A DNA stretch of 64,000 nucleotides, from assembly GCF_029227915.1 (NCBI RefSeq), contig NC_079888.1, positions 18,456,001 through 18,520,000 of the forward strand, written 5' to 3'. The notes below the pieces were generated by a model. The model was not told where the DNA came from and made no database searches. It was given only the letters and a program-made list of their open reading frames with translations. Position numbers and translations under genes: made by a program. The stretch is from Hydractinia symbiolongicarpus (lineage: Eukaryota > Cnidaria > Hydrozoa > Anthoathecata > Hydractiniidae). Of this stretch, positions 1 to 60,335 are shown piece by piece (position 1 is the stretch's first letter; the number at the start of each line of letters is the position of its first letter).

Positions 1-430
1 AGTTAGGTAGTGAGTTTAAGCACTGGATAATGGAGTTTGCATAGCAAGCATTACTTTTATTAAGCAAGCCACTGTTTTTAAGCGTTAGATCTTTCGCAGA
101 CTTTGGTGGCTTGGAAAGTTGTGGGAGTATTGCTAGTTGCTGTGTTGTTTAAGCTCTCTCTGAATGAGGTAGCTACTGAAGGTATGTATCCCAATGAGTC
201 CACTCTCTGACTAACAAAATTAAACAAGTAGTTTAATAGTGCAACGAGTTAACTTAGGTGACAAACCAAGGCGATGTAAACAAGAACGAACAGTTTCTAA
301 GCAGTAGCCGCGAGCGCCCACTTCTATTTTGAAAAACTTTACAGCCCATCCATTATTCTTCATTGTAAAAGCCACTAGACAATACTTATCAGTTTCGGTA
401 TTATGCCTTTTGTTTTCAAACAAAGTACTC
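1..430 (-). pseudogene. Endonuclease-USP fragment of a USP retrotransposon, cut by window edge
   Basis: Read on the minus strand, bases 301-330 encode KIEVGARGYC, the last conserved block of the restriction-like endonuclease in the two intact elements at 8167 and 34938. Downstream on the same strand, bases 22-52 encode NACYANSIIQC, a degenerate USP cysteine box (usually GNTCYxNSxLQ) that still has its catalytic Cys. The order endonuclease, linker, USP start is therefore the family order. No reverse transcriptase is visible, and the reading frame is short and broken. The rest of the USP would lie before base 1. I am confident of the family and less certain of the fragment limits. Confidence 0.75.
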
Positions 431-739
431 TTTTAGAATATGGCGTTAAATTTGAATTGTATAAAACATCTCTAAACACGCACCCTACTCATACTTGTGT
501 TGTATGCCTTTTCTTGTGATGTTAGATTGGCTCCGCTCCAACGCTGCTCCTTTCTCATGAGCAGCATCTGTATGGGCAAGTAAATGTCCCAAAGTATTGT
601 TCACGTAATCTTACGCATGATTGAATATCATACCTTCACCTTTTAAACTTTTTGGTCGAAGGCTATGGTTGTAAAGTGACCATTATTTAAGTTGCCGCAA
701 AAGTTGATAATGGCCCTTAATTGAAAATCTTTACAAAAT
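431..739. other. Spacer between two element fragments, nothing recognised
   Basis: No convincing coding frame in either direction. It separates a USP C-terminal fragment (740-1065) from the endonuclease fragment (1-430), both on the minus strand. Confidence 0.5.
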
Positions 740-1065
740 TTCAGTTCTCCATCTACAATAACAGGTATGGAAATGGTACCAGGGTAAGAAGTAGTACGAG
801 TGGTAATTTTTGACACAAGGCTGTTAGCACAAAAACACCTTTTAGCTGTAAAATGAAATGAGAACCGCAGGACACTACCTCTTTTTCAACTAGAGCAGTT
901 TGATGAGCGTTGCAAACATGACAAAAGTGGGCATCAGTGTCTGGCAGCTCCTCGCTTTCCAAGAAATTATCTGAGGAAGATTGTAATGTTGGGTGCAGAG
1001 AAAGTTGGATGCATGGTGCTATAACCTCTGAGGAACTGGTAATATGACATGAATTTGATCAAAAT
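740..1065 (-). pseudogene. USP C-terminal-half fragment
   Basis: The minus strand encodes a segment with a zinc-ribbon half CHVCNAH, then QTALVEKEVVSCG and a hydrophobic stretch. It matches nearly word for word the segments at 5990-6553 and 7157-7471, which belong to the USP domain of this retrotransposon family. The CxxC pair is one half of the USP zinc ribbon. The catalytic Cys and His boxes are absent, so this is an inactive piece. It ends abruptly near base 1065, where an unrelated AT-rich sequence begins. Confidence 0.75.
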
Positions 1066-5989: not shown

Positions 5990-7142
5990 TCAAAATCTTA
6001 TCAAAATCCGAAATTTCACTTCTCCATCTACGGTAAAAGGTATGGAAAGGGTACCAGGGTAAGCAGTAATACGAGAGGCAATTTTTGACACAAGGCCGTT
6101 GGCACTGGCAAAACGTTTTAGCTGTAAAATGAGATGGGAACCGCACGACACTACCTCTTCTTCAACTAGAGCAGTTTGATGAGCGTTGCAAACATGGCAG
6201 AAGTAGGCATTGGTGTCTGAGAACTCCTCGCTTTCAAAGAAATTATCTAAGGAAGATTGTAACGTAGGATGCAGAGACAGTTGGATGCATGGTGCTATAA
6301 CTTCTGAGGAGCTGGTAATATGACATGAATGGCAAGTGGTTGATGTCTTGTTGCCAATACTAAAAAGACTTCCAAGAAATGGAAAGTCTAATGACAGACC
6401 AGGTAGGAGATATTCAAGAACCTCGGGGACGTCGTGTTGAGCAAACATATTAAATGCACTTCCCTTCGCAGCTGAGATATGATGTTTCATAGCACGCAAA
6501 AAAACGGAAGGGAACAACTGGACTTCTAGAAACAGCCAAACTTTGAAGAACACCTACAATTGCTTCGCCTAACTTTGAGGTTGTTTTGCTGACAGAAATG
6601 GCTTCTTTATCATTTGGAAGGTTATAAAAACATTGTAAGATGGAGTTTGCATAACATGTGTTTCCCAAGTTTTTTAGACCGCTATTCCTAAAATCAGGGT
6701 TAGATGGCAATGCGACTGTTGTTTTGGAAGACCTTGTAGCAAGTTTTTCGGGTTTTTTGATTTTACAAGATTTTGTGTGATTTGCGGAAGATTTCTCAGG
6801 GGTTTTTGATTTCTTACATTCCATATTTGTAACAGAAGAAACTTCAGGATTGATTGGGGCCTTATCAGGCTCAACCCAAGTGGTAGAATTTCGAGACATC
6901 CAGATGTAAAAAGAAGCACTCATGGAGGTAAAAGTTAGGGATTTTAATAGGGAACGTAAAGGCTTGTTAGGGAAACCAAGGCGACGAAAACAGGTCCTTA
7001 CTGATTCACCCACCTCAATGGCAAAGAAATGCACGATCCATCCATTGTTTTTCATAGCATAACAAAGTGAAGAATATTTGTTAAGCTTTCGTTTGTGCCA
7101 ATATTCCGTGTTCTCTTCACATGGACAAGTCAGTTCTAACAT
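5990..7142 (-). pseudogene. Endonuclease-linker-USP fragment of a USP retrotransposon
   Basis: The minus strand begins MLELTCPCEEN, the ELT block of the restriction-like endonuclease, then NGWIVHFFAIEVG. A Lys/Ser-rich linker follows, then GLKNLGNTCYANSILQC, an almost canonical USP cysteine box. A frame change near 6480 leads into the frame containing RAMKHHISAAKGSAFNMF, two CxxC zinc-ribbon halves (CHSCH and CHVCN) and a last open segment to 5990. The reverse transcriptase and the USP His box are missing. It is a truncated copy of a subfamily distinct from both intact elements. Confidence 0.8.
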
Positions 7143-7156
7143 AATTACTGAAAATT

Positions 7157-7750
7157 TTAAAGATATTTCACTTCTCCATCTACGGTAAAAAGTATTGAAA
7201 GGGTACCAGGGTAAGCAGAAATACGAGAACCAATTTTTGACACAAGGCCATTGGCTCTAGCAAAACGTTTTAGCTGTAAAATGAGATAGGAACCGCATGA
7301 CACTACCTCTTTTTCAACTAGAGCAGTTTGACGAGCGTTGCAAACACGGCAGAAGTTGTTGTCTGACAACTCCTCGGTTTTAAAGAAATTATCCAATGAA
7401 GATTTAACGTTGGGTGCAGGCAAAGTTGGATGCATGGTGGTATAACTTCTGAGGAGCTGGTAATATGACATGAATTTTAAGTGGTTGATGTCTTGATGCC
7501 AATACGAAAAAAACTTCCAAGAAATGGAAAGTCTAATGACAGACCAGGTAGATATTCAAGAACCTCGGGTACCTCGTGCTGAGCAAAGATATTAAAAGCA
7601 CTTCCCTTCGCAGCGGAGATATGACGTTTCATAGCACGCAAAAAATGGGAGGGATCAACTGGACTTCTAGAAACATCCAAACTTTGAAGAACACCTACAA
7701 ATGCTTCGCCTAACTTTGAGGTTGTTTTGTTGACAGAAATGGCTTCTTTA
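7157..7750 (-). pseudogene. Second USP fragment directly upstream of the previous copy
   Basis: Minus-strand frames at 7477-7680 and 7157-7471 encode the middle and zinc-ribbon part of the USP (HISAAKGSAFNIF, CRVCNARQTALVEKEVVSCG). They are nearly identical to 5990-6553. The break between the two frames is a small shift. The piece lies immediately 5' of the endonuclease of the next copy, so the order on the minus strand is USP part, then endonuclease-USP. The same order occurs at 1-1065. Catalytic Cys and His boxes are absent. Confidence 0.75.
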
Positions 7751-8166
7751 ACTTTCTATCTGTATGACACATTTTCTAAAATTACAAGTCTTTTGTGTAA
7801 AGTTTGTCCCATTGTTTGAGTTTGTCCCATCCGATGTCACGATTTTTAAAAGCGGGAGATACCTTTGATGATGATGTGGCAAAACAGTTGGCTGTGATGA
7901 TAATACTTGTCTTATGTCAAACGGTAGTAAAATGTAGATGTCCAACCCTCTAAAGGTATTGCATCAGTCAATAGTTCACGGCTGTTTCGCTACGGTCAAA
8001 CCGCGGACAAAATTAAAATGGCTTCCACAATTTTTTTTAAAAAATTGTAATTTTATCAATTTTTAAATTATTGTAACTTTTTTTGTAATATTTTAATTTT
8101 ACTGAAATAAAAAATATTAGAACGGTCTACCTTTCTTCTTTACAATAAAATAAATATTTTTCATAT
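7751..8166. other. AT-rich spacer upstream of USP retrotransposon copy 1
   Basis: No recognised gene. The stretch 8020-8160 is very T/A-rich. Confidence 0.5.
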
Positions 8167-11100
8167 GTGTGCTGGGTATTTCAAGTACTTTCGTCGACCA
8201 AAACACATAAAATTCGAAAAACATTATTTTTCCGCAAAAAGTATGCCATCTATCCAACCTTGTGCCAACGCCGCGGTGATAGCTACCAACCTAAAATTTG
8301 GCACAGGGATCCTGGTGACGTGGTAGTATCGGCCTGTACTGTGCACCGTCCGTCTTGCAAACGTCACTCAGTTCATAAGGGTGGCAGAAAGCTGTCAGGA
8401 AAAAGCCGAAGAACTATTCAATCCATCAATCTAATTAAAGAGAAAAATTCCCTAACTAGTCAAATACAGTCATCCTGCTACCTAAGTCAAAGGAAGGAAT
8501 TACACCAACTTCTTACGGATGTAAAAGGTCGAATAACTTTATTGCGCCGAGCTGAAAGGTCTAGAAAAAAACGCCACCAATTCAAAAAAGCCCAGACCGC
8601 CTTTAAGAACAATCCATACAAGGCAGGAAAAGACCTTCTTGACCCGAAGTGCAAATCAGTTTTAAGGGTCGAACAAGAAACGCTGGATAACTTTAAACTT
8701 GAATCAGTTAAAGACAAATTGTATGATGTACCTTTAGGTAATCTAGATGGGTTATCATCCACTCCACCTCTTTTGAAATCGTTTCCAGTTTCTCTCTTTA
8801 AATATGAAGATTTTATGAAAGTTCTTGGCACTCGGCGAAATGGCTCTTCCCCAGGTATCAATGGGATACCTTATAAAGTTTATAAAAAATGTAATAAAGT
8901 AAATACTGTTTTGTTTAATGTTTTTAAGTCTTGTTTCAAAAATTGTGTTGTCCCTATTCAATGGCGTTGTGCTCGTGAAGTTTATATTCCCAAATCAAAA
9001 ACTCCTATGGAGTCTAATATTAAAGACTTTCGACCTATCGCATTATTAAATGTCGAAGGCAAGCTTCTATTTAGCCTTGTATCAAGGCGATTAGAAGCTC
9101 ACATTATACATAATAACAAATTCATTAACACGTCGGTTCAGAAGGGTTGTATGGAGAAAGTCCCAGGATGCTGGGAACACATGTCAATGGTTTGGTCTGC
9201 ACTTAAAGAGGCCCGGGCCAACAAATCACACCTTGCAAATATATGGCTGGATATTGCAAATGCATATCCTTCAATTCCACACAAGCTTATATTTTTTGCA
9301 CTGGAAAGGTATGGAGTCCCTCAGAGTTGGATATTATTCATTAAGTCATACTACGTTGGTTTATATAGCAAATCGTTTTCTTTGTCTGCACCAAGCAACT
9401 GGCACAAGCATATGCGAGGTATTTTTGCAGGTTGCACTCTTTCCATCATTTTGTTTCTTGCTGGTATAAACATTATTCTTGAATACACTATTGCGGCACC
9501 GGCCCCAAATTATATTACTTCTAAAAACGTGCCCCTTCCTTTAGTCAGAGCTTTTATGGATGATATCAACCTAATGTCATCCTCTGTCTGTGGAGCTCAA
9601 AGCCTCCTTTCCAGGTGCGTCACTGCTTTAAAATGGGCTGCCATGAGTTTTTGCCCTCGTAAGTCAAGGAGCATAATCCTTATAAAAGGTAGATCTGTAA
9701 ACTCCACACCTTTTTCTGTGTCTCACATCTCGTCACAAACCGACTTCTCTTCATTCATCCCGTCAATCCATTCATCGCCAGTTCGTTTTCTCGGTCGCAT
9801 TATTGATGGTACGATTTCAGATGCTAAAGCAATCGACGAGCTAGATAATAAGCTAATAACCGGTCTTACAATCATAAACGGTTCGTGTTTCAAAGGGACC
9901 CAAAAACTATGGATTTTGCAAAACCTTCTAATTCCTCGAATCCAATGGCCAATTCTTATTTATGAAGTTCCAATATCTCGGGCTACAAGGCTGGAGCAGA
10001 AGATATCAACTTTCATTAGAAAATGGCTATCTCTGCACAATTCCACGTCAAATATTTGCCTATATAGCTCCTGCTCGCCTTGTCCAATGCCAATTAAGAG
10101 CTTGACGTCATTGCTTACATGCTCTAAAATAAGTGGTCATTTACTTTTACGCGACTCCAAAGATCCTCTTGTGTCTAACAGTGCACCTACTTTGAAAGTT
10201 GGCATGTGGAAAGTGGACAACGCAGTAAGAACAGCAGAGGCAGAGGTGAAAATAAAGTCAGTCGTGGGAACTCCCCAGTATGGAAAAGCAGGCCTAGGGA
10301 TCAACAAATCTTTCAAAATTCCGATTTCAAAACAGTGCTATGCGTATCGTAAATTAATATCGAACACAGCTAAAGATATCGATGAGGAAGGCAACATGGG
10401 TAGAGCATTGCAGTCGCAAGTGCAGGGTCAGTGGACGAGATGGGAAAATTACACAAAAAACGATCTATCTTGGAAGTCCATTTTTGCCATGTCCCCACAC
10501 TTGCTTTCCTTCTGTCTTGCTTCTACTTACGATGTTCTTCCCTCACCTAGCAATTTAAAGCGCTGGAACGTTTGTACTGAATCTGCTTGTGCCTTATGTT
10601 CCAAACAAGTATGTACAACAGCGCATGTTTTAGGCGCTTGCAAGGTTGCTCTATCACAAGGAAGGTTCACTTTCCGACACGATGCTGTGCTTCGCGGGCT
10701 CCTGTTAAGTCTACAGCGTTTTTCATCTGAAGTTGTCCCGGAAACGAAAAAGCACCTTAAAGTGTCATTTGTAAAAGCAGGTAGCTATTCCTCCGCTAAA
10801 AGATCAAAACCAACTGGTCTATTCCACCATGCTAGTGACTGGGTGTTAGCAGATCTGAATGAAGGATTTGTGTTTCCTGGCCATATTGCGATCACATCCC
10901 TCAGGCCAGACATTGTAATATACTCAAATTGTTCTAAGCGCATCATCATTATTGAACTTACTTGTCCTTGTGAGGAAAACATGGGATCCTGGCATTCCAC
11001 CAAGCTTTCCAAATACTTCCCTTTGGTCGAGGTAATACGTAGCAACGGGTGGTTTCCGCATCTTTTTGCAGTAGAAGTGGGTGCTAGGGGCTACTCTTCA

Positions 11101-12288
11101 AGGTCTCTAACTTGCTGTCTAAAAAGCCTCGGTTTCGCTAGCAAATCTGCGTTTTTAACCGCCCGCAAGCTTGGCGATATAAGCATGAAAGCATCCTTTT
11201 GCATTTGGATTGCACGAGACTCACCACATTGGTCACAAGATCTTACGCACTGCAGTCCGCCAACATTGCCACGACCAAAGGATAGTATACCTCATGAAAA
11301 ATCCTCGTCTGTTACCAAATCCATTAAAAGTCCATCTTCGGCCATCTCTGACATGCCAAAACCCACGGAACACCATAACCTTAGCCAGGAACTTAAACAA
11401 AAGGTGAGCATCGTTCACGCTGGTTTGATAAACAAGGGGAACATATGCTACGCAAACTCCATTTTGCAAGCATTACCGGTTCTTCCAAGACTTTGGTCTC
11501 AATTACCATCAGAGTCCTCTTTGTCATCTCCTCTAGTAAAGTCTATAGTCCTAAATATGTCACTACTGAATCGTTCTCGTTCACCAATTGATCCTTCCAA
11601 TTTCTTACGAGCACTGCAAAACAGAATGCATGCTCTTAACAATAACGCGTTTTATCACAATCACCAACAAGATGTGCCCGAGATCCTTCAAGTTGTTTTT
11701 GACGAAATTATTGGATCTTCCCCTTTGGTTGACAATCTACTGTCTGTAACTGTGACCACAACAACGTCATGCAACTCCTGTTGTTTCTCCACTTCCAGGG
11801 AGCAAAAGGATTCAATTTTAATTTTACCAACGTGTAAGTCAATAGCAGACTCTTTTAACAAATTTTTACAACCTCAAGAACTTCTAGGTGACAACAAGTG
11901 GTTCTGCCCCCAGTGTTCATCGCATCAAGAGGCCACAATTGTAACTCAGATTTCTAATTGCGGCGACTTCCTTGTTGTACAATTGTTAAGATACACATCA
12001 GTAAATGGGTCTTCTTTTAAAGACAACAAGTTAGTCAATTGCTTGCCTAAAAAACATCATGTCTTAAAGGTAGCATCTCACCCAACTGACGATGTGTCTT
12101 TCAACAACAAGTATAACTTGGTTGCTACCATTAACCACTCAGGTACATTAAAAGCAGATCATTACTGGGCCTTCATTAAGGACCAACAAAACACCTGGTT
12201 CAAATGCAACGATCGCTGTATTTCTCAAGTAGACACATTCCACTTGAATAATTCTTCGTCATACATACTTTTCTTTTCCAGAAGTTAG
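8167..12288 (+). CDS. Non-LTR retrotransposon polyprotein: reverse transcriptase, restriction-like endonuclease and ubiquitin-specific protease (copy 1)
   Basis: This is one 1373-residue ORF. Residues from about 215 hold the RT, with SSPGINGIPYKVYKK, DFRPIALLN and the catalytic FMDD at about 463-466 (FxDD replaces the usual YADD). Around residues 800-830 a CALC...H...C cluster is the CCHC finger typical of R2/NeSL-type elements. The endonuclease follows, with PD at about 914-915, then ELTCPCE, a K..KY pair and EVGARGY. The tail is a full USP: cysteine box GNICYANSILQ with Cys about 1094, two CxxC zinc pairs, His about 1332 in ADHYWAF and Asp about 1349 in CNDR. The first roughly 65 residues do not match copy 2, so the true element probably starts near 8370 and is 5'-truncated. 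The GHY to DHY change may weaken the protease. Confidence 0.9.
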   Translation: MCWVFQVLSSTKTHKIRKTLFFRKKYAIYPTLCQRRGDSYQPKIWHRDPGDVVVSACTVHRPSCKRHSVHKGGRKLSGKSRRTIQSINLIKEKNSLTSQIQSSCYLSQRKELHQLLTDVKGRITLLRRAERSRKKRHQFKKAQTAFKNNPYKAGKDLLDPKCKSVLRVEQETLDNFKLESVKDKLYDVPLGNLDGLSSTPPLLKSFPVSLFKYEDFMKVLGTRRNGSSPGINGIPYKVYKKCNKVNTVLFNVFKSCFKNCVVPIQWRCAREVYIPKSKTPMESNIKDFRPIALLNVEGKLLFSLVSRRLEAHIIHNNKFINTSVQKGCMEKVPGCWEHMSMVWSALKEARANKSHLANIWLDIANAYPSIPHKLIFFALERYGVPQSWILFIKSYYVGLYSKSFSLSAPSNWHKHMRGIFAGCTLSIILFLAGINIILEYTIAAPAPNYITSKNVPLPLVRAFMDDINLMSSSVCGAQSLLSRCVTALKWAAMSFCPRKSRSIILIKGRSVNSTPFSVSHISSQTDFSSFIPSIHSSPVRFLGRIIDGTISDAKAIDELDNKLITGLTIINGSCFKGTQKLWILQNLLIPRIQWPILIYEVPISRATRLEQKISTFIRKWLSLHNSTSNICLYSSCSPCPMPIKSLTSLLTCSKISGHLLLRDSKDPLVSNSAPTLKVGMWKVDNAVRTAEAEVKIKSVVGTPQYGKAGLGINKSFKIPISKQCYAYRKLISNTAKDIDEEGNMGRALQSQVQGQWTRWENYTKNDLSWKSIFAMSPHLLSFCLASTYDVLPSPSNLKRWNVCTESACALCSKQVCTTAHVLGACKVALSQGRFTFRHDAVLRGLLLSLQRFSSEVVPETKKHLKVSFVKAGSYSSAKRSKPTGLFHHASDWVLADLNEGFVFPGHIAITSLRPDIVIYSNCSKRIIIIELTCPCEENMGSWHSTKLSKYFPLVEVIRSNGWFPHLFAVEVGARGYSSRSLTCCLKSLGFASKSAFLTARKLGDISMKASFCIWIARDSPHWSQDLTHCSPPTLPRPKDSIPHEKSSSVTKSIKSPSSAISDMPKPTEHHNLSQELKQKVSIVHAGLINKGNICYANSILQALPVLPRLWSQLPSESSLSSPLVKSIVLNMSLLNRSRSPIDPSNFLRALQNRMHALNNNAFYHNHQQDVPEILQVVFDEIIGSSPLVDNLLSVTVTTTTSCNSCCFSTSREQKDSILILPTCKSIADSFNKFLQPQELLGDNKWFCPQCSSHQEATIVTQISNCGDFLVVQLLRYTSVNGSSFKDNKLVNCLPKKHHVLKVASHPTDDVSFNNKYNLVATINHSGTLKADHYWAFIKDQQNTWFKCNDRCISQVDTFHLNNSSSYILFFSRS

Positions 12289-12790
12289 CTTATTTGTATG
12301 TCACACAACAAATGGGGGAGGGAATCCATGACCCTAGCGGTTTTATTTACCCCAGCTGATTTATGTTGGTCAGTGCACCGTGAAACCGGATTTTGCTCAC
12401 TCCTCTCTTTGTATAGAGACAATGTAAGAAGCACAGCAAGGGGGCTTGATATCATATCTTGTCTTTGGGTTTAACGATCCCACTTATTACCCCAGTCCAG
12501 TAGGGAGGCAGAGTTTGCTCACTTTGCTTTCAGGATTGACAATCCTGCTGCCCTTAGTCATTTTAGAAGAAGCTTTGCAAGGGGGTTACATTTTCTTATC
12601 TGGTCTTCGTGGTGTTACGCCCACGCATATTACCCCAGTTATGACAGGCTGGTACTGTCATTAGGCAGGTCCACAGCAACAATTATCTGTGTAAGGCTGA
12701 GTGTTGGAGCTCCATAACACATGTGGAAAGCTACAGCCAGGGTCACAAGTCCTGGCGCGCAGATAGTTGTTTGCTTCTTAAACACATTCT
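12289..12790 (+). other. 3' UTR of USP retrotransposon copy 1, with repeated modules
   Basis: After the stop there are three modules each carrying TTACCCCAG (12347, 12487 and 12630), separated by AGCAAGGGGG-like and TTGTCTTTGGG-like blocks. A final block contains AAGGCTGAGTGTTGG and AACACATGTGGAAAGCTACA. Copy 2 has the same blocks in the same order but only two TTACCCCAG modules. Such conserved 3' ends are normally what the RT recognises to prime reverse transcription. That role is inferred from the family. Confidence 0.75.
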
Positions 12791-13650
12791 CTAAAGAATA
12801 ATTTTAAATTTATCCGTTTAAGGATATTCACGTTATGATAAGTTTTATTTGTCTTATTTGTACCTATTCAATTCATTTTGAATTGCTTTAATATTTATTT
12901 TTTAGTGTTGTGTTCTGTCGCTGTTGTATTTTTCTGCCTTTTACGGTCAATGTTTTTAGGAAATCCTTGCAAAAAGGGGGATTTTGCTTTTTTGAAAAAT
13001 CTCTAGAGGGTTGCAACCTCAAACTATAGTAGAACCAGCTGTCATTAGACAAGAAATATCATTACAGCTAGCTGTTTTGTCACCTCATCATCAACTTAAG
13101 TTAAAGTCTTTGTTTAGCGCTAAAAAAGAGTGGATAAAGTTGGAAAAGTGGTGCACGGCAATACAATGTAATATGATCCCTTTTTTGTTCAAATAAGTAG
13201 TATCTATAGCTATAATAGATCCAGACTGTTGGCATCAAATGATTTGTTGTTATGGTTTTCGTTACAGAATTACGGAAACACCGTGTTTATCACGTCCTCG
13301 ATAGCCCAAAATGGAGACACAGTTCCGAGTACGGATAAAAATAAAAATGGCAGAACAATCGAGACAGCGTTGCTATATACAAACGCACGCTGTTAATATA
13401 ATTCTTTTTGAGCGGGACGGCAGATCAAAACCAGCTAAGTGATTCTTCTTTTTTATTGGGAATATCCCTGTTTAATTCCTCAAACTTTGAAGGTGCCTGT
13501 CTTTTTTGAATTGTCGTAAATATTTAGTTACGTGTTATTCTCGTTGTTTTTATCATCTGTTGTTTATATTGTTATTGTTGTGTGTTCTTTTTGTGTGTGT
13601 GAAGTTTGTCTTTTTTTCCCTTCAAAGTTCTTTTTAACTAACAACTGGGT
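12791..13650. other. Spacer between the retrotransposon and the PHD ORF
   Basis: No supported gene. Reading frames here are short. The 13440-13640 part is T-rich and may be the 5' leader or promoter of the ORF starting at 13651. No terminal inverted repeat was found. Confidence 0.45.
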
Positions 13651-18321: not shown

Positions 18322-18408
18322 ATTTCATTGCATAAAATCTCCGCCCGATCTAATACTGGATAAACGCCCTTTCAGGCCTTGAGGCTGAAAGTCATTACTG
18401 AGGACCTC
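18322..18408 (+). repeat. Left inverted terminal repeat of the DIRS element
   Basis: It matches the reverse complement of 22387-22473 with only one or two mismatches. The core is CGATCTAATACTGGATAAAC followed by CCCTTTCAGGCCTTGAGGC. Confidence 0.9.
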
Positions 18409-18571
18409 TTTCGCCAATTCACGCTAATTAAGATGGACGCTTCAAGTTTCTTTCATATTTTGAATTTTAAATCCACAAATATCTCTTCATTCATTCCGTG
18501 TTTGGTAAGAGATAGTACTATTTTGTTATCCTCGGCTATAAGAGGAATGCATATCGTCATAATTTCCGATT

Positions 18572-22383: not shown

Positions 22384-22386
22384 ACA

Positions 22387-22473
22387 GAGGTCCTGAGTAA
22401 TGACTTTCAGCCTCAAGGCCTGAAAGGGCGTTTATCCAGTATTAGATCGGGCGGAGATTTTATGCAATGAAAT
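22387..22473 (-). repeat. Right inverted terminal repeat of the DIRS element
   Basis: Inverted partner of 18322-18408. It abuts directly the first arm of an 82-bp perfect inverted repeat. Confidence 0.9.
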
Positions 22474-22554
22474 TGAGGATTGTGCAAGGGCGCGAAGCGC
22501 CCGCAGTGCAATCCCGATTTTATAAATAAAATCGAAGCCAACGATCTAATACTG
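22473..22554 (+). repeat. Arm 1 of a perfect 82-bp inverted repeat
   Basis: It is the exact reverse complement of 22881-22962. The arm contains AGGGCGCGAAGCGCCC, itself a hairpin, and ends with CGATCTAATACTG, the same end motif as the DIRS terminal repeat. Perfect identity implies recent origin or gene conversion. Confidence 0.95.
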
Positions 22555-22617
22555 CCCACCCACCCAGGCTTCACAGCCACCTCGTCATTTATTTATTTAC
22601 TTTTATTTATATTTCAG

Positions 22618-22673
22618 GCAGAGGTTCTTTTCGTGGTGCATACCGTGGAAATCGTGGTCGCGGCAGTACATAA
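22618..22673 (+). pseudogene. Stranded 3' exon encoding an RGG-rich tail
   Basis: A polypyrimidine tract and TTTCAG acceptor (22616-22617) precede a frame reading GRGSFRGAYRGNRGRGST and a stop at 22671-22673. RGG/RG repeats are typical C-terminal tails of RNA-binding proteins such as GAR1, fibrillarin or LSm relatives. No upstream exon is recognisable nearby. It sits between the two 82-bp arms, so it may be a captured exon rather than part of a live gene. It could also be an unrelated Gly/Arg-rich gag tail, as the DIRS gag also ends in GRG repeats. Confidence 0.4.
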
Positions 22674-22841
22674 TCTGTATACTTTATTTGTGAAAATATA
22701 AACAAACTTTCTTTCATTATGTTCTTTTGCATTCCCATGCCAAAATCAAGTTTCTGAATTGGCTCATAAGCGATTTTATGTTTGTAGTATCAAGTCAACT
22801 CTGATATAAAATAAAATCGAAGGTCCTGCAGTATGTATTCA

Positions 22842-22893
22842 TAATGACTTTCTTACTCAAGGCGTGAAAGGGCGTTTATCCAGTATTAGATCG
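22842..22893 (-). repeat. DIRS-terminal-repeat-like segment with a different outer end
   Basis: It shares TAATGACTTTC, TCAAGG, TGAAAGGGCGTTTATCCAGT and ATTAGATCG with the right terminal repeat at 22390-22450, then continues into the 82-bp arm instead of GGGCGGAG. It therefore belongs to a related but distinct DIRS family. Confidence 0.8.
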
Positions 22894-22962
22894 TTGGCTT
22901 CGATTTTATTTATAAAATCGGGATTGCACTGCGGGCGCTTCGCGCCCTTGCACAATCCTCAA
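22881..22962 (-). repeat. Arm 2 of the perfect 82-bp inverted repeat
   Basis: Exact inverse of 22473-22554. The 326-bp loop between the arms holds the RGG exon. Confidence 0.95.
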
Positions 22963-34385: not shown

Positions 34386-34588
34386 GTGATTGAAGGATTG
34401 TTTTTTCTCTTTAAGATTTTCTCAGTGAATAGTTATAGGTCCAAGTTGGACAGTACTCATGCTTGTAATAAGCAAGAAAGTGTATTCAGCACCTTCTTCT
34501 GGGAGCCTAATCCCAATTTTATTTACATCCACCGTCCCTGTAGACAAGATACTTCAGTGCAGCTTGCTGTATTGTAAACCTTTTTCAT
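34386..34588 (+). repeat. 203-bp direct repeat, left copy (target-site duplication candidate)
   Basis: Identical along its whole length to 39753-39955, offset 5367 with no indel. It starts GTGATTGAAGG and ends TTTTTCAT. The two copies bracket the USP retrotransposon precisely. Confidence 0.95.
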
Positions 34589-34617
34589 CTTATTGTTGAC
34601 CGCAATGGTTTCAACCT

Positions 34618-34693
34618 GACACTGGGAAAGACTAGTGACACTGGGAAAGACTAGGGACACTGGGAGAGACTAGTGACACTGGGAAAGACCGGT
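34618..34693 (+). repeat. Four 19-bp tandem units in the 5' UTR
   Basis: Units of GACACTGGGAAAGACTAGT follow head to tail, with single changes in units 2 and 3 and three in unit 4. 5' UTR tandem repeats often carry promoter activity in LINEs. That is inference here. Confidence 0.9.
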
Positions 34694-34861
34694 AAACTGT
34701 TTGCAACTGGATCGACATGACCGTTTTAAAGGACTCGATTGTGTATACTGATTTTGATTTTATTATAACCGGACCCTAATCCACGGTACGCGTCAACGGA
34801 TGAATGGCTAATGGGTTAATTAGTCGCTAGCGAATCCTCACAGTCTTGGTGCCGCTGTGAA

Positions 34862-34937
34862 AACTATAGCCTTACCCTGTGCGCCAGGCAACGCAGGGCT
34901 GACAATCTTATCCTGTGCATAATCAACCCCTATAGTT
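34862..34937 (+). promoter_or_regulatory. Predicted RNA stem abutting the start codon
   Basis: AACTATAG (34862-34869) and CTATAGTT (34930-34937) form a perfect 8-bp stem ending immediately before the ATG at 34938. Inside, CCCTGTGCG pairs with CGCAGGG. This could control translation or be part of a 5' end structure. No ribozyme core was identified. Confidence 0.45.
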
Positions 34938-37900
34938 ATGACTTCTTTTATACCCAACTTCGAAAAGAATCATTGCAATAAACAAAATGATACAGTACTC
35001 CAAAAGCACTTGATGAAAAGCTGTAAAGTTGTTTTGGAGGATGTTTGTTCTCTCAGTGGTGCTGAAAAGCTTAAGATCACAATCTCTACTTCGGTTTCAT
35101 CCCACAAAAGTAAATTGTGTCACACGGAAAAAAACAAACTTCAGAACCTCGATGAGAAAGCCCCCATTCTATGGGGTAAGATGAATGATAAGCGTTGGAG
35201 TGACTTAGACAGTGCTGTGCATAGCAAGCTAAAGGCTTGTACCAATCTATCCATTTCTGAGAAAGTTAAAACACTCGAAACTTTAATTTACGAAGAGGCT
35301 TCAAAAATATTTGGTTGCCGCTCCTCAAATAAAACAAAAAACATTGCCAGTATTAACAGGCGTACAATACGTTCCATTAATCTGGTTAAGGAGAAAAATG
35401 TTCTGTTAGCGCAGATTGCCTCATCAACCATCAAGGAGGAACTAACTGCCTTGCAAGAACTGTTGCAACAAGTTCGAATAAAAATAAGGGTGATGCGTCG
35501 AGGTGAGAAACGAAGAAGAAGAAAGTGGAGCTTTAAGAACGCCCAAAAGGTTTTTAGGAATGATCCCTACAAAGCAGGAAAGGACCTGCTTAACCCTAAA
35601 TCAGATATTCGTCTTTGTGTTGAACAGTCTGTTCTGGACAACCATAAATTATCTAGCTTATCTGATAATTTTCACGACTCTTCTCTTCCCCTTCTTCCAG
35701 GTCTTCCACCACCTCCGCAGATCAAGAAAGCTTTCTCAGCCACATCTTTCAAATTTTCTGATTTCGCAAGTGTTTTATATACGCGTAGGAACGCCTCAGC
35801 TCCTGGGCTAAATGGCATATCTTACAAAGTGTACAAAAAATGTACGAAAATTTCATCCTTCTTGTTTAATGTATTTAAGTGTTGTTTAAAAAATTGTGTT
35901 GTGCCTCTTCAATGGCGTCATGCCAAAGAAATTTACATTCCCAAATCCAAAACTCCTGTACCATCTAACCTAAAAGATTTTCGACCTATAGCCCTCCTAA
36001 ATGTCAAAGGAAAATTATTTTTTAGTATTTTTTCAAGGCGACTAGAAACACATGTCATCCATAACAATAAGTTTATTAACACGTCTGTTCAAAAGGGGTG
36101 CATGGCGAATGTTCCTGGCTGTTGGGAACACATGTCGTCAATCTGGGCAGCTTTAAAAGATGCACGCTCTGCAAGAACTGATCTTGCCACCATTTGGTTG
36201 GATATCGCAAGTGCGTATCCCTCAATACCGCACAGATTAATCTTTTTTGCTTTGGAAAGGTATGGTATATCTCCTAGTTGGATTGCCATTGTAAAGGGTT
36301 ACTATTCTGGGCTGTACAGCAAATCATTCTCCAAATCTGCTCCAAGCAATTGGCACCAGCACTTCAGGGGCATCTTCGCTGGCTGCACCCTGTCTATCGT
36401 CCTGTTTTTATCAGGCATAAATGTTATTTTGGAGTATACGCTGGCAACATCTGTGTCATGCTACATCACCTCTAACAGAGTATCCTTACCTTTAATAAGG
36501 GCTTTTATGGACGACATAAACATCATGTCTTCTTCTGTTGCTGGAACACAAGTACTCCTTAACAGGTGCACCACAGCTCTAAGTTGGGCCAATATGACAT
36601 TTCGCGCTGAAAAATCCCGTAGTTTTGTGATCATCAAGGGAAGATCTATCAATAGCACCCCTTTTAGTGTAAGTAGCCCTGAAAACGACATTGATTTCTC
36701 ACAGTATATCCCATCTATTCATGCCTCGCCAGTGCGATTTTTAGGCCGGATTATTGATTGTTCTATCTCAGACAGGAAGTCCATCAACGAATTGGAGGAA
36801 AAGCTGATAGAAGGGCTTGGTGTCATTAATAAGTCCTTATACACTGGAGCGCAAAAACTTTGGATCTTGCAACATCTTTTGATCCCGCGAATTCAGTGGC
36901 CACTGTTAATATACGAGGTCTCGATGTCTGTTGCTGGGCGCCTAGAGCAAAAGGTTTCAGTGTTCATACGAAAATGGCTGAACTTACACCGTTCCATCAC
37001 AAACATTTCCCTATATGCTGACTCCTCTCCTTGCCCTCTGCCCATTAAGAGCCTCACTTCTATTTTAAAATCCGCAAAGATTAGCGGCCACCTACTTTTG
37101 CGTCACTCCAAAGATCCGATTCTGTCAACACTCGATCCATCTTTAAAGGCAGGTTCTTGGAAGGTGAGCGATGCAGTTAACATAGCTGAGGGTGAATTAA
37201 AGTACAAGACCATAAGGGGTCCTGTACAGCGTGGACGAACCGGTCTTGGCATTTGTAAAGTGGAAGTAATACCACCAAAAACCACTCACAAGTACAGAAA
37301 GTTAATCGCAAAAACATCGGCTGAGATTGACGAGGAAAGCTATCTATCTAAGGCACTGCAACTTCAGGTGCAGGGCCAATGGACAAGATGGGAGAACTAC
37401 GTAAAGTTTGATCTTTCATGGAAGAACATCCTAGCAACTCCTCCTAATCTCTTATCTTTCTGCCTGCAATCCACTTACGATGTTCTGCCATCACCAAGTA
37501 ACCTAAGGAGGTGGAAAATAAATACAGAACCATCATGTTTCCTATGTCACAAAGAAATTTGCACTTCTGCTCACATTCTTGGTGCTTGTAAAACTGCTCT
37601 TTCCCAGGGTAGATATACCTTTAGACACGATTCTGTACTTACCCATTTGGTAGAAACTTTAAAAAAGTTCATTTTTGAGCTTCCTTCTGAACCTCCTAAA
37701 AATTGTCAAAAAATAACCTTTCTGAGAGCCGGGTCAAAGGCACATACAAAATCTAAAGTGTCAGGTATACTGCACCTTACCAAAGATTGGAAGATTGTTG
37801 CTGACACACACTCGAACTATGTGTTTCCTAGCCATATTGCCATTTCTGAGCTTAAACCGGACCTTGTGTTATATTCAAATGACCTTAAGCGCGTTATTAT

Positions 37901-39203
37901 TGTAGAACTCACTTGCCCATGTGAGGAAAACATGAATGCTTGGCACTCCACAAAAGTTGCCAAATATTCCTGTTTAATGAATGTGATTATGGTTAATGGC
38001 TGGCAAGTTGATTTCTTCGCAGTGGAAGTAGGAGCAAGAGGATATTGTGCAAGAACCACCACTGCCTGTTTAAAAAGAATGGGTTTCACCAACAAACTTG
38101 CTTATTCCACTGCAAATGATCTCGGTAAAATCAGTATGAGGTCTTCTTTTTGTATCTGGCTGGCACGTGAATCCAATGTTTGGTCAACTGACTCCTTAAT
38201 GCAATTGCCCAAATCCAAGCAGGCTTTGCCCATTGTGGAGACCAAGGGTGTTTCATCTCGCCGAAAAGGGCCATCTAAAAAGGTTAGCCAAAATAAAAAT
38301 GACACTCAACCAATTAGTGTCTATAAAAACATCGGTTTTTTAAACAAAGGCAACACTTGTTACGCCAACGCCATTTTGCAAGTATTAAGTACCATTCCAA
38401 CACTCTGGTGCCAGAGTGGGTCAGAATCGTTTCATTTATCACCTATTGCGAGGTCTATTTCGCTTAACATGGCGAAGCTGAAGCAATCATTGTCACCTGT
38501 TGACCCTTCGAATTTTCTCTGGGCCCTTGAACGTCAAATGCACTCTGATGGGAAACTGGACTTCCAATTTAATACTCAGCAAGATGTAGCAGAGATTTTG
38601 TTTGTGGTTTTGGACGCCCTTAAGGGATTTTCCCCGATTGCTGCAGATAAAATCTCAACTGAAATCTCAATGTCCGTAAGCTGTAACACCTGCCTGTGCA
38701 CCTCGGTAAATGTCGAAATGCAGGACATTTTAACACTGCCAATGACATCTAAAATCCAATCTTGTGTCAGCAAATTTTTAGAACCGGAAATTCTAACTGA
38801 TGGAAACAAGTGGTTTTGTCCGCAATGCTTTGCACATAGAGAGAGTACTAGAGAAACGCAAATCAGCAGGAGTAGTGAAATCTTATTCCTGCATCTTAAA
38901 AGGTTTTTAAAACATGGTGAACATCTGGTAAAAGACAACAGAGTTGTTGAATGTGTTTCTTTACGTGACTCTCTCCTGCAACTACCTCTCGTCAGTGATA
39001 CGGACACAATGTTTAATCAGAACTACTCATTGTTAGCAACAATTAATCACTCCGGTACATTAACCGCAGGTCATTATTGGGCTTATGTTAAGGATCCTGC
39101 CACAAATTCTTGGTACCACTGCAATGATAGAGCGGTTTGCAAATGCTCTCCACCTATTCTCAACAACAATTCATGTTATATTCTTTGTTACGTTCGCTGT
39201 TGA
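34938..39203 (+). CDS. Non-LTR retrotransposon polyprotein: reverse transcriptase, restriction-like endonuclease and ubiquitin-specific protease (copy 2)
   Basis: 1421 residues in one uninterrupted frame, starting at the ATG after the stem. Residues 1-130 have no zinc finger that I can see, unlike R2. The RT follows (SAPGLNGISYKVYKK, DFRPIALLN, FMDD with Asp 525-526). A CCHC finger begins near 866 (CFLCHKEICTSAHILGAC). The endonuclease has Asp975, Glu990 in ELTCPCE, Lys1006/1009 and EVGARGY. The USP runs from about 1130 to the end: GNTCYANAILQ with Cys1141, zinc pairs CNTC and CPQC, His1379 in AGHYWAY and Asp1397 in CNDR. Every catalytic residue expected of RT, nuclease and protease is present, so the protein is plausibly active. 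Cellular role of the protease is unknown. Confidence 0.95.
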   Translation: MTSFIPNFEKNHCNKQNDTVLQKHLMKSCKVVLEDVCSLSGAEKLKITISTSVSSHKSKLCHTEKNKLQNLDEKAPILWGKMNDKRWSDLDSAVHSKLKACTNLSISEKVKTLETLIYEEASKIFGCRSSNKTKNIASINRRTIRSINLVKEKNVLLAQIASSTIKEELTALQELLQQVRIKIRVMRRGEKRRRRKWSFKNAQKVFRNDPYKAGKDLLNPKSDIRLCVEQSVLDNHKLSSLSDNFHDSSLPLLPGLPPPPQIKKAFSATSFKFSDFASVLYTRRNASAPGLNGISYKVYKKCTKISSFLFNVFKCCLKNCVVPLQWRHAKEIYIPKSKTPVPSNLKDFRPIALLNVKGKLFFSIFSRRLETHVIHNNKFINTSVQKGCMANVPGCWEHMSSIWAALKDARSARTDLATIWLDIASAYPSIPHRLIFFALERYGISPSWIAIVKGYYSGLYSKSFSKSAPSNWHQHFRGIFAGCTLSIVLFLSGINVILEYTLATSVSCYITSNRVSLPLIRAFMDDINIMSSSVAGTQVLLNRCTTALSWANMTFRAEKSRSFVIIKGRSINSTPFSVSSPENDIDFSQYIPSIHASPVRFLGRIIDCSISDRKSINELEEKLIEGLGVINKSLYTGAQKLWILQHLLIPRIQWPLLIYEVSMSVAGRLEQKVSVFIRKWLNLHRSITNISLYADSSPCPLPIKSLTSILKSAKISGHLLLRHSKDPILSTLDPSLKAGSWKVSDAVNIAEGELKYKTIRGPVQRGRTGLGICKVEVIPPKTTHKYRKLIAKTSAEIDEESYLSKALQLQVQGQWTRWENYVKFDLSWKNILATPPNLLSFCLQSTYDVLPSPSNLRRWKINTEPSCFLCHKEICTSAHILGACKTALSQGRYTFRHDSVLTHLVETLKKFIFELPSEPPKNCQKITFLRAGSKAHTKSKVSGILHLTKDWKIVADTHSNYVFPSHIAISELKPDLVLYSNDLKRVIIVELTCPCEENMNAWHSTKVAKYSCLMNVIMVNGWQVDFFAVEVGARGYCARTTTACLKRMGFTNKLAYSTANDLGKISMRSSFCIWLARESNVWSTDSLMQLPKSKQALPIVETKGVSSRRKGPSKKVSQNKNDTQPISVYKNIGFLNKGNTCYANAILQVLSTIPTLWCQSGSESFHLSPIARSISLNMAKLKQSLSPVDPSNFLWALERQMHSDGKLDFQFNTQQDVAEILFVVLDALKGFSPIAADKISTEISMSVSCNTCLCTSVNVEMQDILTLPMTSKIQSCVSKFLEPEILTDGNKWFCPQCFAHRESTRETQISRSSEILFLHLKRFLKHGEHLVKDNRVVECVSLRDSLLQLPLVSDTDTMFNQNYSLLATINHSGTLTAGHYWAYVKDPATNSWYHCNDRAVCKCSPPILNNNSCYILCYVRC

Positions 39204-39752
39204 TCCGCTTTTTCTTTCTTTCTTATACATTTATCATTACGTTTATAAAACCTGTACTTCCAGGGTCATGGGGGAGGAAAATGTAAATCCGAGCGGTTTT
39301 ATATTACCCCAGCTAGTTCATTCGAACCAGTTTGCCGTCAATACCCAGAGGGTAAAGAGTTCAGCTCACTCTTCTCTGGTAACTTAAAAGAAGCTTAGCA
39401 AGGGGGTTAGCTTTCAGCTTGTCTTTGGGTGTAACGACCCCACTTTTTACCCCAGTTCAGTAAGGTGCCCAAGTTTACTAACTTGGTCTTCAGGCTTGAC
39501 AACCCTGCTGTCCTTAGTCAAAATATGTACAGGCTGGTCCTGTCATGACAACCTCCTGTGTAAGGCTGAGTGTTGGGGCCCTGTAACACATGTGGAAAGC
39601 TACAGCCAGAGTCACAAGTTCTGGCGCACAGGAGGGTTTTATATAATTCTTTTTTTATATTATATATTTTTGACATATACATTTTTTCCATTGGTGTTTG
39701 TTCTGTAACCAGTCCGTTTATGTTGTTAGATCTGTCTTGTGTCGTATTGTTT
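39204..39752 (+). other. 3' UTR of USP retrotransposon copy 2
   Basis: It shares with copy 1 the blocks GGGGGAGG, TTACCCCAG (39304 and 39447), AGCAAGGGGGTTAG, TGTCTTTGGGTGTAACGA and AACACATGTGGAAAGCTACA in the same order. One TTACCCCAG module of copy 1 is missing. The last 110 bases before the flanking repeat are T-rich and not shared. Confidence 0.75.
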
Positions 39753-39955
39753 GTGATTGAAGGATTGTTTTTTCTCTTTAAGATTTTCTCAGTGAATAGT
39801 TATAGGTCCAAGTTGGACAGTACTCATGCTTGTAATAAGCAAGAAAGTGTATTCAGCACCTTCTTCTGGGAGCCTAATCCCAATTTTATTTACATCCACC
39901 GTCCCTGTAGACAAGATACTTCAGTGCAGCTTGCTGTATTGTAAACCTTTTTCAT
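39753..39955 (+). repeat. 203-bp direct repeat, right copy
   Basis: Perfect copy of 34386-34588 immediately after the retrotransposon. Confidence 0.95.
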
Positions 39956-47073: not shown

Positions 47074-47290
47074 GGGAACTTATTTTGGCGGGAACTAATT
47101 TTGGCGGACGAAGGAAATCTAAAAAAAATTTAATTTTGGCGGGAACTAATTTTGGCGGATCAACGAAATTTTTAATTTTGGCGGGAACTTATTTTGGCGG
47201 GTGGCGGTTTTTTTTAATTTTGGCGGGAACTTATTTTGGCGGGTCAGCGGATTTTTTAATTTTGGCGGGAACTAATTTTGGCGAGTGAAG
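47074..47290 (+). repeat. Left array of E2F-like sites
   Basis: TTTTGGCGGGAA starts at 47083, 47134, 47176, 47218 and 47260. The last four are exactly 42 bp apart. Each is followed by CTWATTTTGGCG(G/A). The core fits the E2F/DP consensus WTTSSCSS. The array lies about 120 bp upstream of the HIRAN-PIP start codon, as a promoter would. Confidence 0.85.
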
Positions 47291-47413
47291 GATTTTTTCA
47301 AATTTCAACGAAAATTTTCTTTGGTAAAGATGTAGAAATAAGCATTACAAAGCAAAGAATTTTAAAACAAATACTAAAAATCTACTCTTCTTCATCGTCT
47401 ATGATAATGTCAA

Positions 47414-48019
47414 ATGCATTATTATAAAACTTATTGGAAACCTGAGGAAAATCAATCACTGGACTGCTTTCATGAGAACAACAATGTTTTCGATAGATTT
47501 GCAATCAAAGTTTGTGAATTCGGAAATGACAAACCAGTTGGCCATTTACCCAAAGAAATCTCAAGGGTTACAAAATTTCTTCTGGACAGAGGAGCGTCTA
47601 TGAAATCCACGTTGACAAGTGTACACTATCGAAGATCACCTCTCGTTCAAGGAGGCTTGGAGATCCCCTGTAAAATAACTGTTACTTTACCAGGGACAGT
47701 AAACAATCTTTTGGTTCTTGCAAGATACCAACAACTTGTAGAAGCCTTGTATACAGAGCCGAAAGAGGAATTGATTCTTGGTTCGTTCTTACATATTGCA
47801 GTTATTTTAGATGTCGTGGTTCCAACCGAAGAGAGACCAAAGCGTAAAAAAAATACAGCCAAAAGCCAAAGCAAAGAGACGAAAAAGCAAAAAGATATTC
47901 GAAACTTTTTTGGAAACACCTCAGCTGCACCAGCCCCAAAAAGGCAAAAAGTTAACAACAAACCTAAAAAGTCGTCACCATCGTCAAGCAAGGACTTAGA
48001 AATCATAAATATTGATTAA
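47414..48019 (+). CDS. HIRAN-like protein with a C-terminal PIP box
   Basis: 201 residues from the ATG at 47414. An in-frame stop lies at 47402, just upstream. Residues 1-100 match the HIRAN pattern by eye: HENNNVFDRFAIKV, PVGHLPKEISRV and QGGLEIPC. HIRAN in HLTF binds free 3' DNA ends. Residues 140-190 are Lys-rich and contain QKDIRNFF at 159-166, an exact PCNA-interacting PIP box (QxxIxxFF). The tail DLEIINID (194-201) is SUMO-interaction-like. There is no helicase or RING domain, unlike HLTF. The frame is intact although surrounding gag is decayed, so selection or recent insertion is likely. Alternative: a captured host gene with no current role. Confidence 0.75.
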   Translation: MHYYKTYWKPEENQSLDCFHENNNVFDRFAIKVCEFGNDKPVGHLPKEISRVTKFLLDRGASMKSTLTSVHYRRSPLVQGGLEIPCKITVTLPGTVNNLLVLARYQQLVEALYTEPKEELILGSFLHIAVILDVVVPTEERPKRKKNTAKSQSKETKKQKDIRNFFGNTSAAPAPKRQKVNNKPKKSSPSSSKDLEIINID

Positions 48020-48128
48020 AAATTATCTTGTATTAGAGGTTTATTATGACATAATATTTCTAGCGCAAAGGTATATTTCTAAAAGATATAAAAAATTGAA
48101 AAAAAGTTGATTTTTGTCGATTTTTTAA

Positions 48129-48329
48129 GGGGAACTTATTTTGGCGGATCAACGAAATTTTTAATTTTGGCGGGAACTTATTTTGGCGGGTGGCGATTTT
48201 TTTTAATTTTGGCGGGAACTAATTTTGGCGGGTGAGTAAAATATTTAATTTTGGCGGGAACTAATTTTGGCGGATTTTGCCCCAATCCGCCAAATCCGCC
48301 AAAATTAGTTCCCGCCAAAATAAGTTCCC
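48129..48329 (+). repeat. Right array of E2F-like sites with inverted terminus
   Basis: TTTTGGCGGGAA starts at 48165, 48207 and 48249, again 42 bp apart. One inverted copy (TTCCCGCCAAAA) lies at 48309-48320 in the terminal repeat. Confidence 0.85.
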
Positions 48330-48333
48330 TTAA
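48330..48333. repeat. TTAA target duplication, right
   Basis: Partner of 47070-47073. Confidence 0.65.
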
Positions 48334-48560
48334 GGTACTGGGGCATCGAAGTTACAGAACATTGGGCCTGTTGGATGTGAGAAGACAACAAAGGGGCCTC
48401 AAATGGGCACAGCTTCATCTGTAGGCTGAAGAACCGCAACAGCATCCACGCCATTTTGATCAAGAATTTCATCCAAAGAGCCGGTGGGCCGAACACAAGA
48501 GCGAGAGGAAGACAAAGATAGCGCAGTTTTGTTTCCAGGTGTGCTGCTTTTCATTCTTTG
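48334..48560 (-). pseudogene. N-terminal part of the split gag
   Basis: The minus strand reads MKSSTPGNKTALSLSSSRSC then RPTGSLDEILDQNGVDAVAV and QPTDEAVP, followed by a stop. This is the side of the gag that lies upstream of the inserted TTAA element, and its start Met is near 48553. It has no zinc motifs, which are on the other side of the insertion. Assignment rests mainly on position and strand. Confidence 0.5.
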
Positions 48561-58867: not shown

Positions 58868-59629
58868 TTTGTTTATTGTATATTTCGAACGACGTCAGAG
58901 AATTACATGTCATTGTACATACGCAACCTCCCCATTATATGTGATATATTTATGGTAGCAGTACCAGCAAAGCGTCTTATCCCTTACAACGAACCTCCGA
59001 CCACAGGTGCATCTATCGTACGCATCCAATATACTTTCACAGTCGTTACAATATTCCATTTATTTATCACAGCTACAAGGACGATCATCTTCTAGGGCAT
59101 TAAGATGATCACATGGGTCTTGAATCCTCTGCTTATTATACTTTTCTCTCTCCAATTCTTGTACGCGTGATAAGGCTAAAGTGGCAGAGAGAAACTGGTA
59201 CCGGGTAGGAAGGTCATGAATACCATACTTTTAAAGCTATATTGACAGTTATAGTATCTTACAACCAGGGATGTAATATAACGTTTCAAACCAACCCTAA
59301 AAATTCCTCTTGCGTCAGATCAACCCCAAATCTTTTGAGACGTCTCCAGTCCGGGGCAGGCCTTCCTTTATAAGGTTATTGTTAACGCTGTAGAGCAAGT
59401 CAAACTCATAGATAATTCTTCCCATAGAGGCGTTCACAAAGTTAGCGACAGCCATCCAGAAGTTCTTATTCAATTATGAGCCAGCAAAACCATATAGATG
59501 TCATAAAATATCCTTTGTTCCAGCTAGTAAACGTCTTCCCACCAAAAAGTGTTAAAAAATTCAAGGAATCCTTAACCTGGCCTTTTATTGGAGATTATTG
59601 TCAGACTTAGATACCTTATCTTGCTGTAA
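58868..59629. other. No recognised gene
   Basis: Short frames only. The right edge is where the plus-strand USP retrotransposon fragment starts. Confidence 0.45.
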
Positions 59630-60335
59630 CTCAACTTTATGTTGAAGTAGGAGCTAGGGGATTTTGTTCCGAAACAGTTAGAATCTGCCTCCGTCGCCTC
59701 GGCTTTTCTAACATGTCTGTGCGTTCCACTCTAAAATCTCTTACTGAGTCATCTATGCGATCGTCGTTGTACATCTGGCTATCTCGAGATTCTTTGTCTT
59801 GGATTCATCCTGGCAGGGATCCACAGCATACCGCTCAATTTATACCAACTGTTTCAAAGAAATCAACAAGTCACAAGCAACTTCGACCAGTAGCTTTAAG
59901 GACACGAATCCCCAAGGCGTAACAAAGAGCTCCACTACCTTGCCTGCACAAGAATCACTAGGCAGCAACAGCGGCTTGCTAAATTTGGGCAACACATGTT
60001 ACATCAATTCCATCTTGCAATGTTTTTATGTGTTACCCGCAGTCGCTACAGCCATCTCTGCAAATGATTCCAATATGGCGATAGGTAAAAGTTTTGTAAG
60101 TATTCTCCGCCAATTATCCTCCTCCAAGGTTCCAGTGAACACTTCTTCATTTCTAAATGCATTAAAAGGCCATGTTTCTAATGCAAGGGGCGCTGCTTTT
60201 AATCAGTTCTCTCAGCAAGATGCCCTAGAGATTCTTGAGTATCTCATGCCAGAGTTGGCCACAGCCTTTCCTTACTTTACTAGATTATTCAACACTGGTG
60301 TAAAAATCTCACCCTATTCGGTAAACTGTATATGA
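59630..60335 (+). pseudogene. Endonuclease end, linker and USP start of a further USP retrotransposon subfamily
   Basis: VEVGARGFCSETV at 59641 is the endonuclease end block. SSLYIWLSRDSLSW follows, as in the intact ORFs (SSFCIWLARES). A frame change near 59900 leads to SGLLNLGNTCYINSILQCFY, an excellent USP cysteine box, and ARGAAFNQFSQQDALEILEY. The reading stops at 60335 before the zinc and His parts. RT is missing. The text is closer to the minus-strand fragments at 5990-7142 than to the two intact copies. Confidence 0.8.

Follow-up and report, generated by a model that had tools for sequence, protein, structure and literature searches.

Does a retrotransposon carry its own ubiquitin-specific protease (USP)? 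This question was raised by a stretch of 64,000 nucleotides of the Hydractinia symbiolongicarpus genome (C14:18456001-18520000, hereafter the window), in which an earlier note had described an intact open reading frame (ORF) joining a reverse transcriptase (RT), a CCHC finger and a PD-(D/E)xK endonuclease to a complete USP. Profile, predicted structure and a conserved family all bore this out. We found that the RT-USP element is real and belongs to a recently active, conserved family, which is new, within the literature searched, among the non-long-terminal-repeat (non-LTR) retrotransposons with a restriction-like endonuclease (RLE). The Hydractinia family consists of RLE-type non-LTR retrotransposons with a single ORF ending in a complete USP, the catalytic residues of which are near-invariant.

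The ORF (34938..39203, plus strand, as are all its domains) encodes 1421 amino acids (aa) without internal stop, and its frame is open from 34923. RVT_1 was located by Pfam at residues 334-604 (35937..36749, E=5.7e-16), with D422 and F523-M-D-D526. The CCHC knuckle C867-C870-H879-C884 (37536..37589) was read from sequence, and the RLE catalytic core at residues P974-Y1010 (37857..37967) was placed through an alignment of 74 sequences, its residues being P974-D975, E990, K1006 and Y1010; a zf-RVT match at residues 823-887 (E=5.3e-5) stayed under the Pfam cut-off. R2 proteins were the best PDB sequence matches for residues 284-717 and the first matches for the predicted structure of residues 716-1125. 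This order within a single ORF, an R2-like RT, then CCHC and PD-(D/E)xK endonuclease, is that of RLE-type non-LTR elements. One further match, to the ubiquitin-like APG12, lay at residues 671-725 and recurred at the corresponding position of a second copy (E=0.042 and 0.0042); it was below cut-off and was set aside as chance.

The C-terminal UCH (peptidase C19) match, which had been proposed as a test of the fusion, spans the entire Pfam model at residues 1132-1418 (38331..39191, E=5e-32). Cys1141, His1379 and Asp1397 stand where the earlier note had numbered them, and the zinc pairs are C1249/C1252 and C1294/C1297. PDB sequence matches of the C terminus included USP8, USP15, USP2 and USP36, and the six best matches to its predicted structure were all USP2, each naming ubiquitin or a variant of it in the title; further matches included structures of USP18-ISG15 and USP36-Fubi. 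The domain thus shares fold, triad and zinc pairs with cellular USP2, USP8, USP15 and USP36, but is only 20-30% identical to solved USPs in structure comparison. The UCH profile, the Cys-His-Asp triad, the zinc pairs and the fold assign it to the USP/peptidase C19 family, and from the intact triad it is predicted to be a deubiquitinase.

In the 480.9 Mb genome searched, the best 33 of 3466 candidates were scored and copy counts are lower bounds. At least nine copies match residues 1-1421 at 99-100%, their ORFs agreeing with that of the window copy at 99.6-100% DNA identity; they are spread over six chromosomes at eight places, two copies being joined in a tandem, and their outer flanks are unrelated. 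The uninterrupted ORF in seven of these nine speaks for RT and USP being carried on one mRNA. At least 40 copies at 98-100% were revealed by a search with the 3′ untranslated region (UTR). Given such near-identical copies of both ORF and 3′ UTR, the family is recently active in Hydractinia. Divergent subfamilies at 47-58% protein identity were also found among the matches listed.

A database search with the whole protein returned 86 proteins, 51 of which contained both UCH and RVT_1, so that the other RT-USP architectures for which a search had been suggested do exist. In the alignment (P0001-P0073 and a second window copy), the catalytic Cys was kept in 67/67 sequences with a residue there, His in 62/63 and Asp in 61/61; each zinc Cys was kept in 63/63 and each CCHC residue in 72/72. 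The USPs of the relatives were 23-50% identical to that of the window protein, except P0031 with 63% over just 54 residues. A profile search gave 110 matches among 7978 candidates scored; among the newly added relatives were proteins of Branchiostoma, Mytilus and Dreissena, several of them partial, in which UCH was not matched. Relatives' DNA was found neither in the viral contigs collection nor in the genome contigs collection, where 35 stretches matched a pattern and none encoded a relative; the USP part had no match in phages. Two RT-USP proteins, P0032 and P0061, are filed under a "Pseudomonadales bacterium" metagenome-assembled genome, and the shortness of their contigs (about 4 kb) suggests eukaryotic contamination of the bacterial bin.

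In the RT tree of 102 proteins, every USP-labelled member fell in one clade of 85 (support 1.0), within which the core clade comprised 67 proteins (0.898) and its sister clade 18 (0.951). USP was present in 57 of the 67 core members and in six of the 18 sister members; P0231, first labelled by alignment length, was left out of this count since Pfam shows no UCH in it. The other ten core tips had no or partial USP in the database records as deposited. RT and USP trees of 47 proteins were correlated (r=0.84, with 0/2000 permutations as high), from which the two parts appear to have been inherited together for the most part. In the USP tree 66 element USPs formed one group (0.859), and P0212 and P0215-P0218 formed a second (0.927) with no settled place among 14 cellular USPs; no donor gene was identified in this tree, which is compatible with a single capture of the USP or with two.

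Comparison of copies defined a retrotransposon unit of 5,367 bp (34589..39955, plus strand) with the 3′ end ...CCTTTTTCAT. Its 5′ UTR (34589..34937) contains a 19-bp minisatellite at 34618-34689, where small hairpins were predicted and two genome copies differ by about one repeat. The 3′ UTR (39204..39955) has no poly(A) at its junction, and its last 203 bp (39753-39955) are repeated with 100% identity just upstream of the unit (34386..34588, plus strand). This upstream pseudo-LTR corresponds to unit positions 5165-5367, a 5′-truncated portion of the 3′ end of the element itself, so the element is flanked by identical direct repeats. A true LTR element was rejected: the flanking repeats vary from 110 to 2,448 bp between copies and are pieces of an upstream copy, and the ORF has no integrase domain in Pfam.

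Twenty loci were fetched for end analysis, 16 of them in the family of the window copy; L021 and L022 form one tandem, hence 15 outer 3′ ends. All 15 stopped at the same 3′ end, one with a base change in the last five (TTCAA), and were followed by unrelated DNA without poly(A). The 5′ ends were scattered, copies shorter than the unit beginning at unit positions 600-2188. A fixed 3′ end with variable 5′ truncation is expected of RLE-type non-LTR elements. No target-site duplication was seen at 15 loci, where the longest stretch shared by own 5′ and 3′ flanks averaged 5.2 bases versus 5.29 for mismatched flanks. The flanks at the loci studied were unrelated and revealed no fixed target; the sole excess was C just after the 3′ end (9/15), which may itself be element sequence.

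All ten listed copies bearing the ORF start (L001-L009 and L011) were preceded by a piece of their own 3′ end, at a joint where TTCAT runs directly into CTTATTG. These pieces were 110, 203 (window), 275, 285, 478, 755, 1,029, 2,024 and 2,448 bp long, and in one case a full copy; inserts were both shorter and longer than one unit, and one locus combined two full units with 755 bp. In a genome search with the joint sequence (best 40 of 371 candidates scored, 41 rows), the 11 listed family rows reaching the boundary (95-100% identity) all spanned the joint from the first base of the query, one further row (99%) started well within the 5′ UTR, the five listed rows of a tandem subfamily on C13 (87%) also spanned the joint, and none of the 41 began at the unit boundary. 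Subfamily B has a similar joint (L031). The C13 locus (C13:23677500-23703708, of which 6 kb was fetched) consists of degenerate RT-USP units, each about 5.3 kb long and with broken frames, arrayed head to tail; five joints were found among the matches listed. The simplest reading of ends and joints is target-primed copying from a fixed 3′ position on an RNA template longer than one unit.

Compared with known systems, the element resembles R2 (Bombyx, Taeniopygia, Platysternon) in combining RT, CCHC knuckle and RLE in one ORF, and R2 proteins were its best PDB matches in both sequence and predicted fold. However, it differs from R2 in its C-terminal USP, in an N terminus where no C2H2 pattern was found, in having no 28S or other fixed target, and in its partial-tandem organisation; insertion flanks were unrelated, and no rRNA match was found in the window. 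The label "R2-type" of the earlier note therefore holds for RT and endonuclease but not for C2H2 fingers or 28S target. For a 5′ ribozyme of the hepatitis delta virus (HDV) type, as in R2, Rfam and a crude scan gave no match. Its "NeSL-type" label did not stand. NeSL and Utopia are likewise RLE-type non-LTR elements with a cysteine protease of the ubiquitin/SUMO world, but as described for nematode families that protease is Ulp1-like and N-terminal, and the targets are spliced-leader or U2 genes (PMC4640811); the only protease match in the Hydractinia element is the C-terminal UCH, and its loci had no common flank that would indicate a spliced-leader or U2 target, and the window gave no Rfam match at all, U2 included.

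Penelope-like elements occur as copies in tandem or partial tandem, with pseudo-LTRs (PMC11167929), a trait which the Hydractinia element shares. In the Penelope-like element of that report the endonuclease is of GIY-YIG type and a hammerhead motif is present, whereas here we found an RLE, no GIY-YIG match and no ribozyme. A USP-type domain fused to a mobile-element enzyme has a counterpart in Trichomonas vaginalis XP_001314237.1, where transposase and peptidase C19 occur in one protein (PMC2836005), although that enzyme is a DNA transposase (transposase_11) and not a reverse transcriptase. Ulp1 and OTU domains are also known in DNA transposons (PMC2836005); those of Ginger1, Mutator and Helitron belong to protease families other than USP. 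The literature search, with Repbase and most subscription journals outside its reach, yielded no report of an RT-USP fusion and none of an RLE element with pseudo-LTRs, and the fusion may already have a Repbase catalogue entry. The Hydractinia genome paper gives long interspersed nuclear elements as 4% of each genome, and a word search of its main text returned neither "ubiquitin" nor "Penelope" (PMC11067881).

RT and RLE of such families carry out target-primed reverse transcription, and hosts use ubiquitin against mobile elements. We propose, at about even odds, a mechanism with a cis-acting ORF product, an RNA longer than one unit and an active USP removing ubiquitin from the element's own protein or insertion complex. 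Partial tandems would give this RNA, which the ORF product would bind in cis; the RLE would be largely indifferent to the DNA sequence that it cuts, and the RT would copy the RNA from the fixed 3′ position (...CTTTTTCAT), giving insertions that are variably 5′-truncated and often longer than one unit. The C-terminal USP, as an active deubiquitinase travelling with the ribonucleoprotein (RNP), would strip host-placed ubiquitin and so delay the removal of the RNP or complex by the proteasome or in connection with repair. As a single chain contains both RT and USP, the protease would act first on what the RNP touches, namely its own protein or the insertion complex.

In the main rival the substrates are proteins of chromatin or repair at the site of cleavage (ubiquitinated H2A/H2B, PCNA, FANCD2), where the USP would make the target accessible or allow second-strand synthesis and repair to be completed; we consider this possible but clearly the less probable of the two. 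A strict C2H2 pattern was found in 15/15 sister-clade N termini (>200 aa) versus 0/37 in the core clade, P0001 included, which together with the missing fixed target makes another solution to chromatin plausible, and a role of ubiquitin in transposition via repair was suggested for Ulp1 and OTU in DNA transposons (PMC2836005). Against this, Pfam shows no histone- or repair-factor-binding module in the 1421-aa protein, and the USP fold does not tell substrates apart. In two outer groups the strict pattern was found in 0/4 and 0/5 N termini; a looser pattern over 67 N termini matched P0083 and P0236 in the outer groups, P0246 and P0251 off the tree, and one core member, P0024, poorly, although such pattern searches could miss a degenerate finger. 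Probably the fingers are either ancestral or a gain of the sister clade, and the core clade is without them, which fits, but does not prove, a shift from site choice to general access.

Head-to-tail joints might instead come from circular RNA through rolling reverse transcription, which we consider rather unlikely. Inserts shorter and longer than one unit, all with this one joint and once made up of 755 bp and two units, fit a circle; yet neither Rfam with relaxed threshold nor simple scans for hammerhead and HDV-like motifs revealed a ribozyme or circularising motif, which leaves circular RNA as no more than a possibility. Linear read-through of partial tandems explains the same data, as proposed for a Penelope-like element, for which internal initiation on the template was seen in vitro (PMC11167929).

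Still less probable is that the domain does not serve as a ubiquitin protease in life and binds or cleaves a ubiquitin-like protein or is structural. The USP18-ISG15 and USP36-Fubi matches and the low identity to solved USPs are in its favour, but the six best structural matches are the USP2 entries mentioned above, and near-invariant catalytic residues speak against a role that is structural only. A host USP gene lying beside a retrotransposon, through assembly or annotation artefact, might be suspected from the NCBI name of one piece (P0088, "ubiquitin carboxyl-terminal hydrolase 2-like"), but is ruled out for practical purposes by the dispersed full-length copies and the 51 two-domain database relatives, P0088 itself being 100% identical to the element over the 327-aa query.

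Several points weigh against removal of ubiquitin from the element's own protein or insertion complex. The seven sister-clade members P0219-P0225 stop 8-34 residues past the RLE, so the USP is dispensable for part of the clade. RT and USP trees have only 22/44 splits in common, with six conflicting pairs at support ≥0.95, making some USP exchange possible. Non-synonymous and synonymous changes among near-identical copies reveal no constraint on the USP (singletons 6:2, neutral site ratio 3.67). The substrate could be a ubiquitin-like protein, given the ISG15 and Fubi complexes above, and the proposed substrate, deubiquitinase activity and transcript are predictions from gene sequence. More tentatively, we might speculate on a widespread RLE lineage that acquired a permanent deubiquitinase module and abandoned finger-guided targeting, in which Penelope-like partial tandems arise from multimeric, possibly circular, RNA; editing of ubiquitin by this module, either on the RNP of the element or on target chromatin, would then make non-specific insertion possible.

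With RT and a conserved USP in one polypeptide, a host-element conflict over ubiquitin would become directly testable by a single active-site mutation, for which Hydractinia, a laboratory animal with near-identical open-frame copies, is useful. Dozens of distant relatives with all three enzymes suggest that some jumping genes edit the protein-marking system of the cell. That partial tandems, known from Penelope elements, are combined here with another kind of endonuclease is relevant to the way in which they arise. Gene catalogues list element pieces as host deubiquitinases: P0088 is 100% identical to the window USP over 327 aa, and the Hydractinia model P0119 ("USP51-like") is a piece 97% identical to the second copy over 524 aa. 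USPs derived from transposable elements can thus inflate USP gene counts.

The window contains further RT-USP sequences, which the earlier note mentioned no more than the 203-bp direct repeats. The second copy (8363..13093, plus strand) is a 5′-truncated subfamily B element, 99.4% identical to locus L031, with an ORF ending at 12288 and a protein 56% identical to that of 34938-39203; the 8167-8362 part of this ORF is outside the stretch common to other copies. Relics were found at 6008..7800 (minus strand; RLE and USP pieces with broken frames), at 154..1055 (minus strand) and at 59360..60332 (plus strand), the last from another RT-USP lineage with UCH (E=5.9e-14) in the ORF 59799-60335.

Just 3′ of the second copy, an ORF of 1027 aa (13651-16734), in which DUF1280 (E=1.6e-13) and, weakly, a PHD finger were matched, is perhaps another mobile-element gene. 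The stretch 18322-22962 contains an RT ORF (19468-21261, RVT_1 E=1.1e-19), a weak tyrosine-recombinase match below cut-off (21694-22383) and the inverted repeats 18322-18412/22382-22473 and 22473-22554/22881-22962, and is presumably a DIRS-type element. An ORF at 47414-48019 with a HIRAN domain (E=2.9e-6) adjoins a local repeat cluster at 47082-48337.

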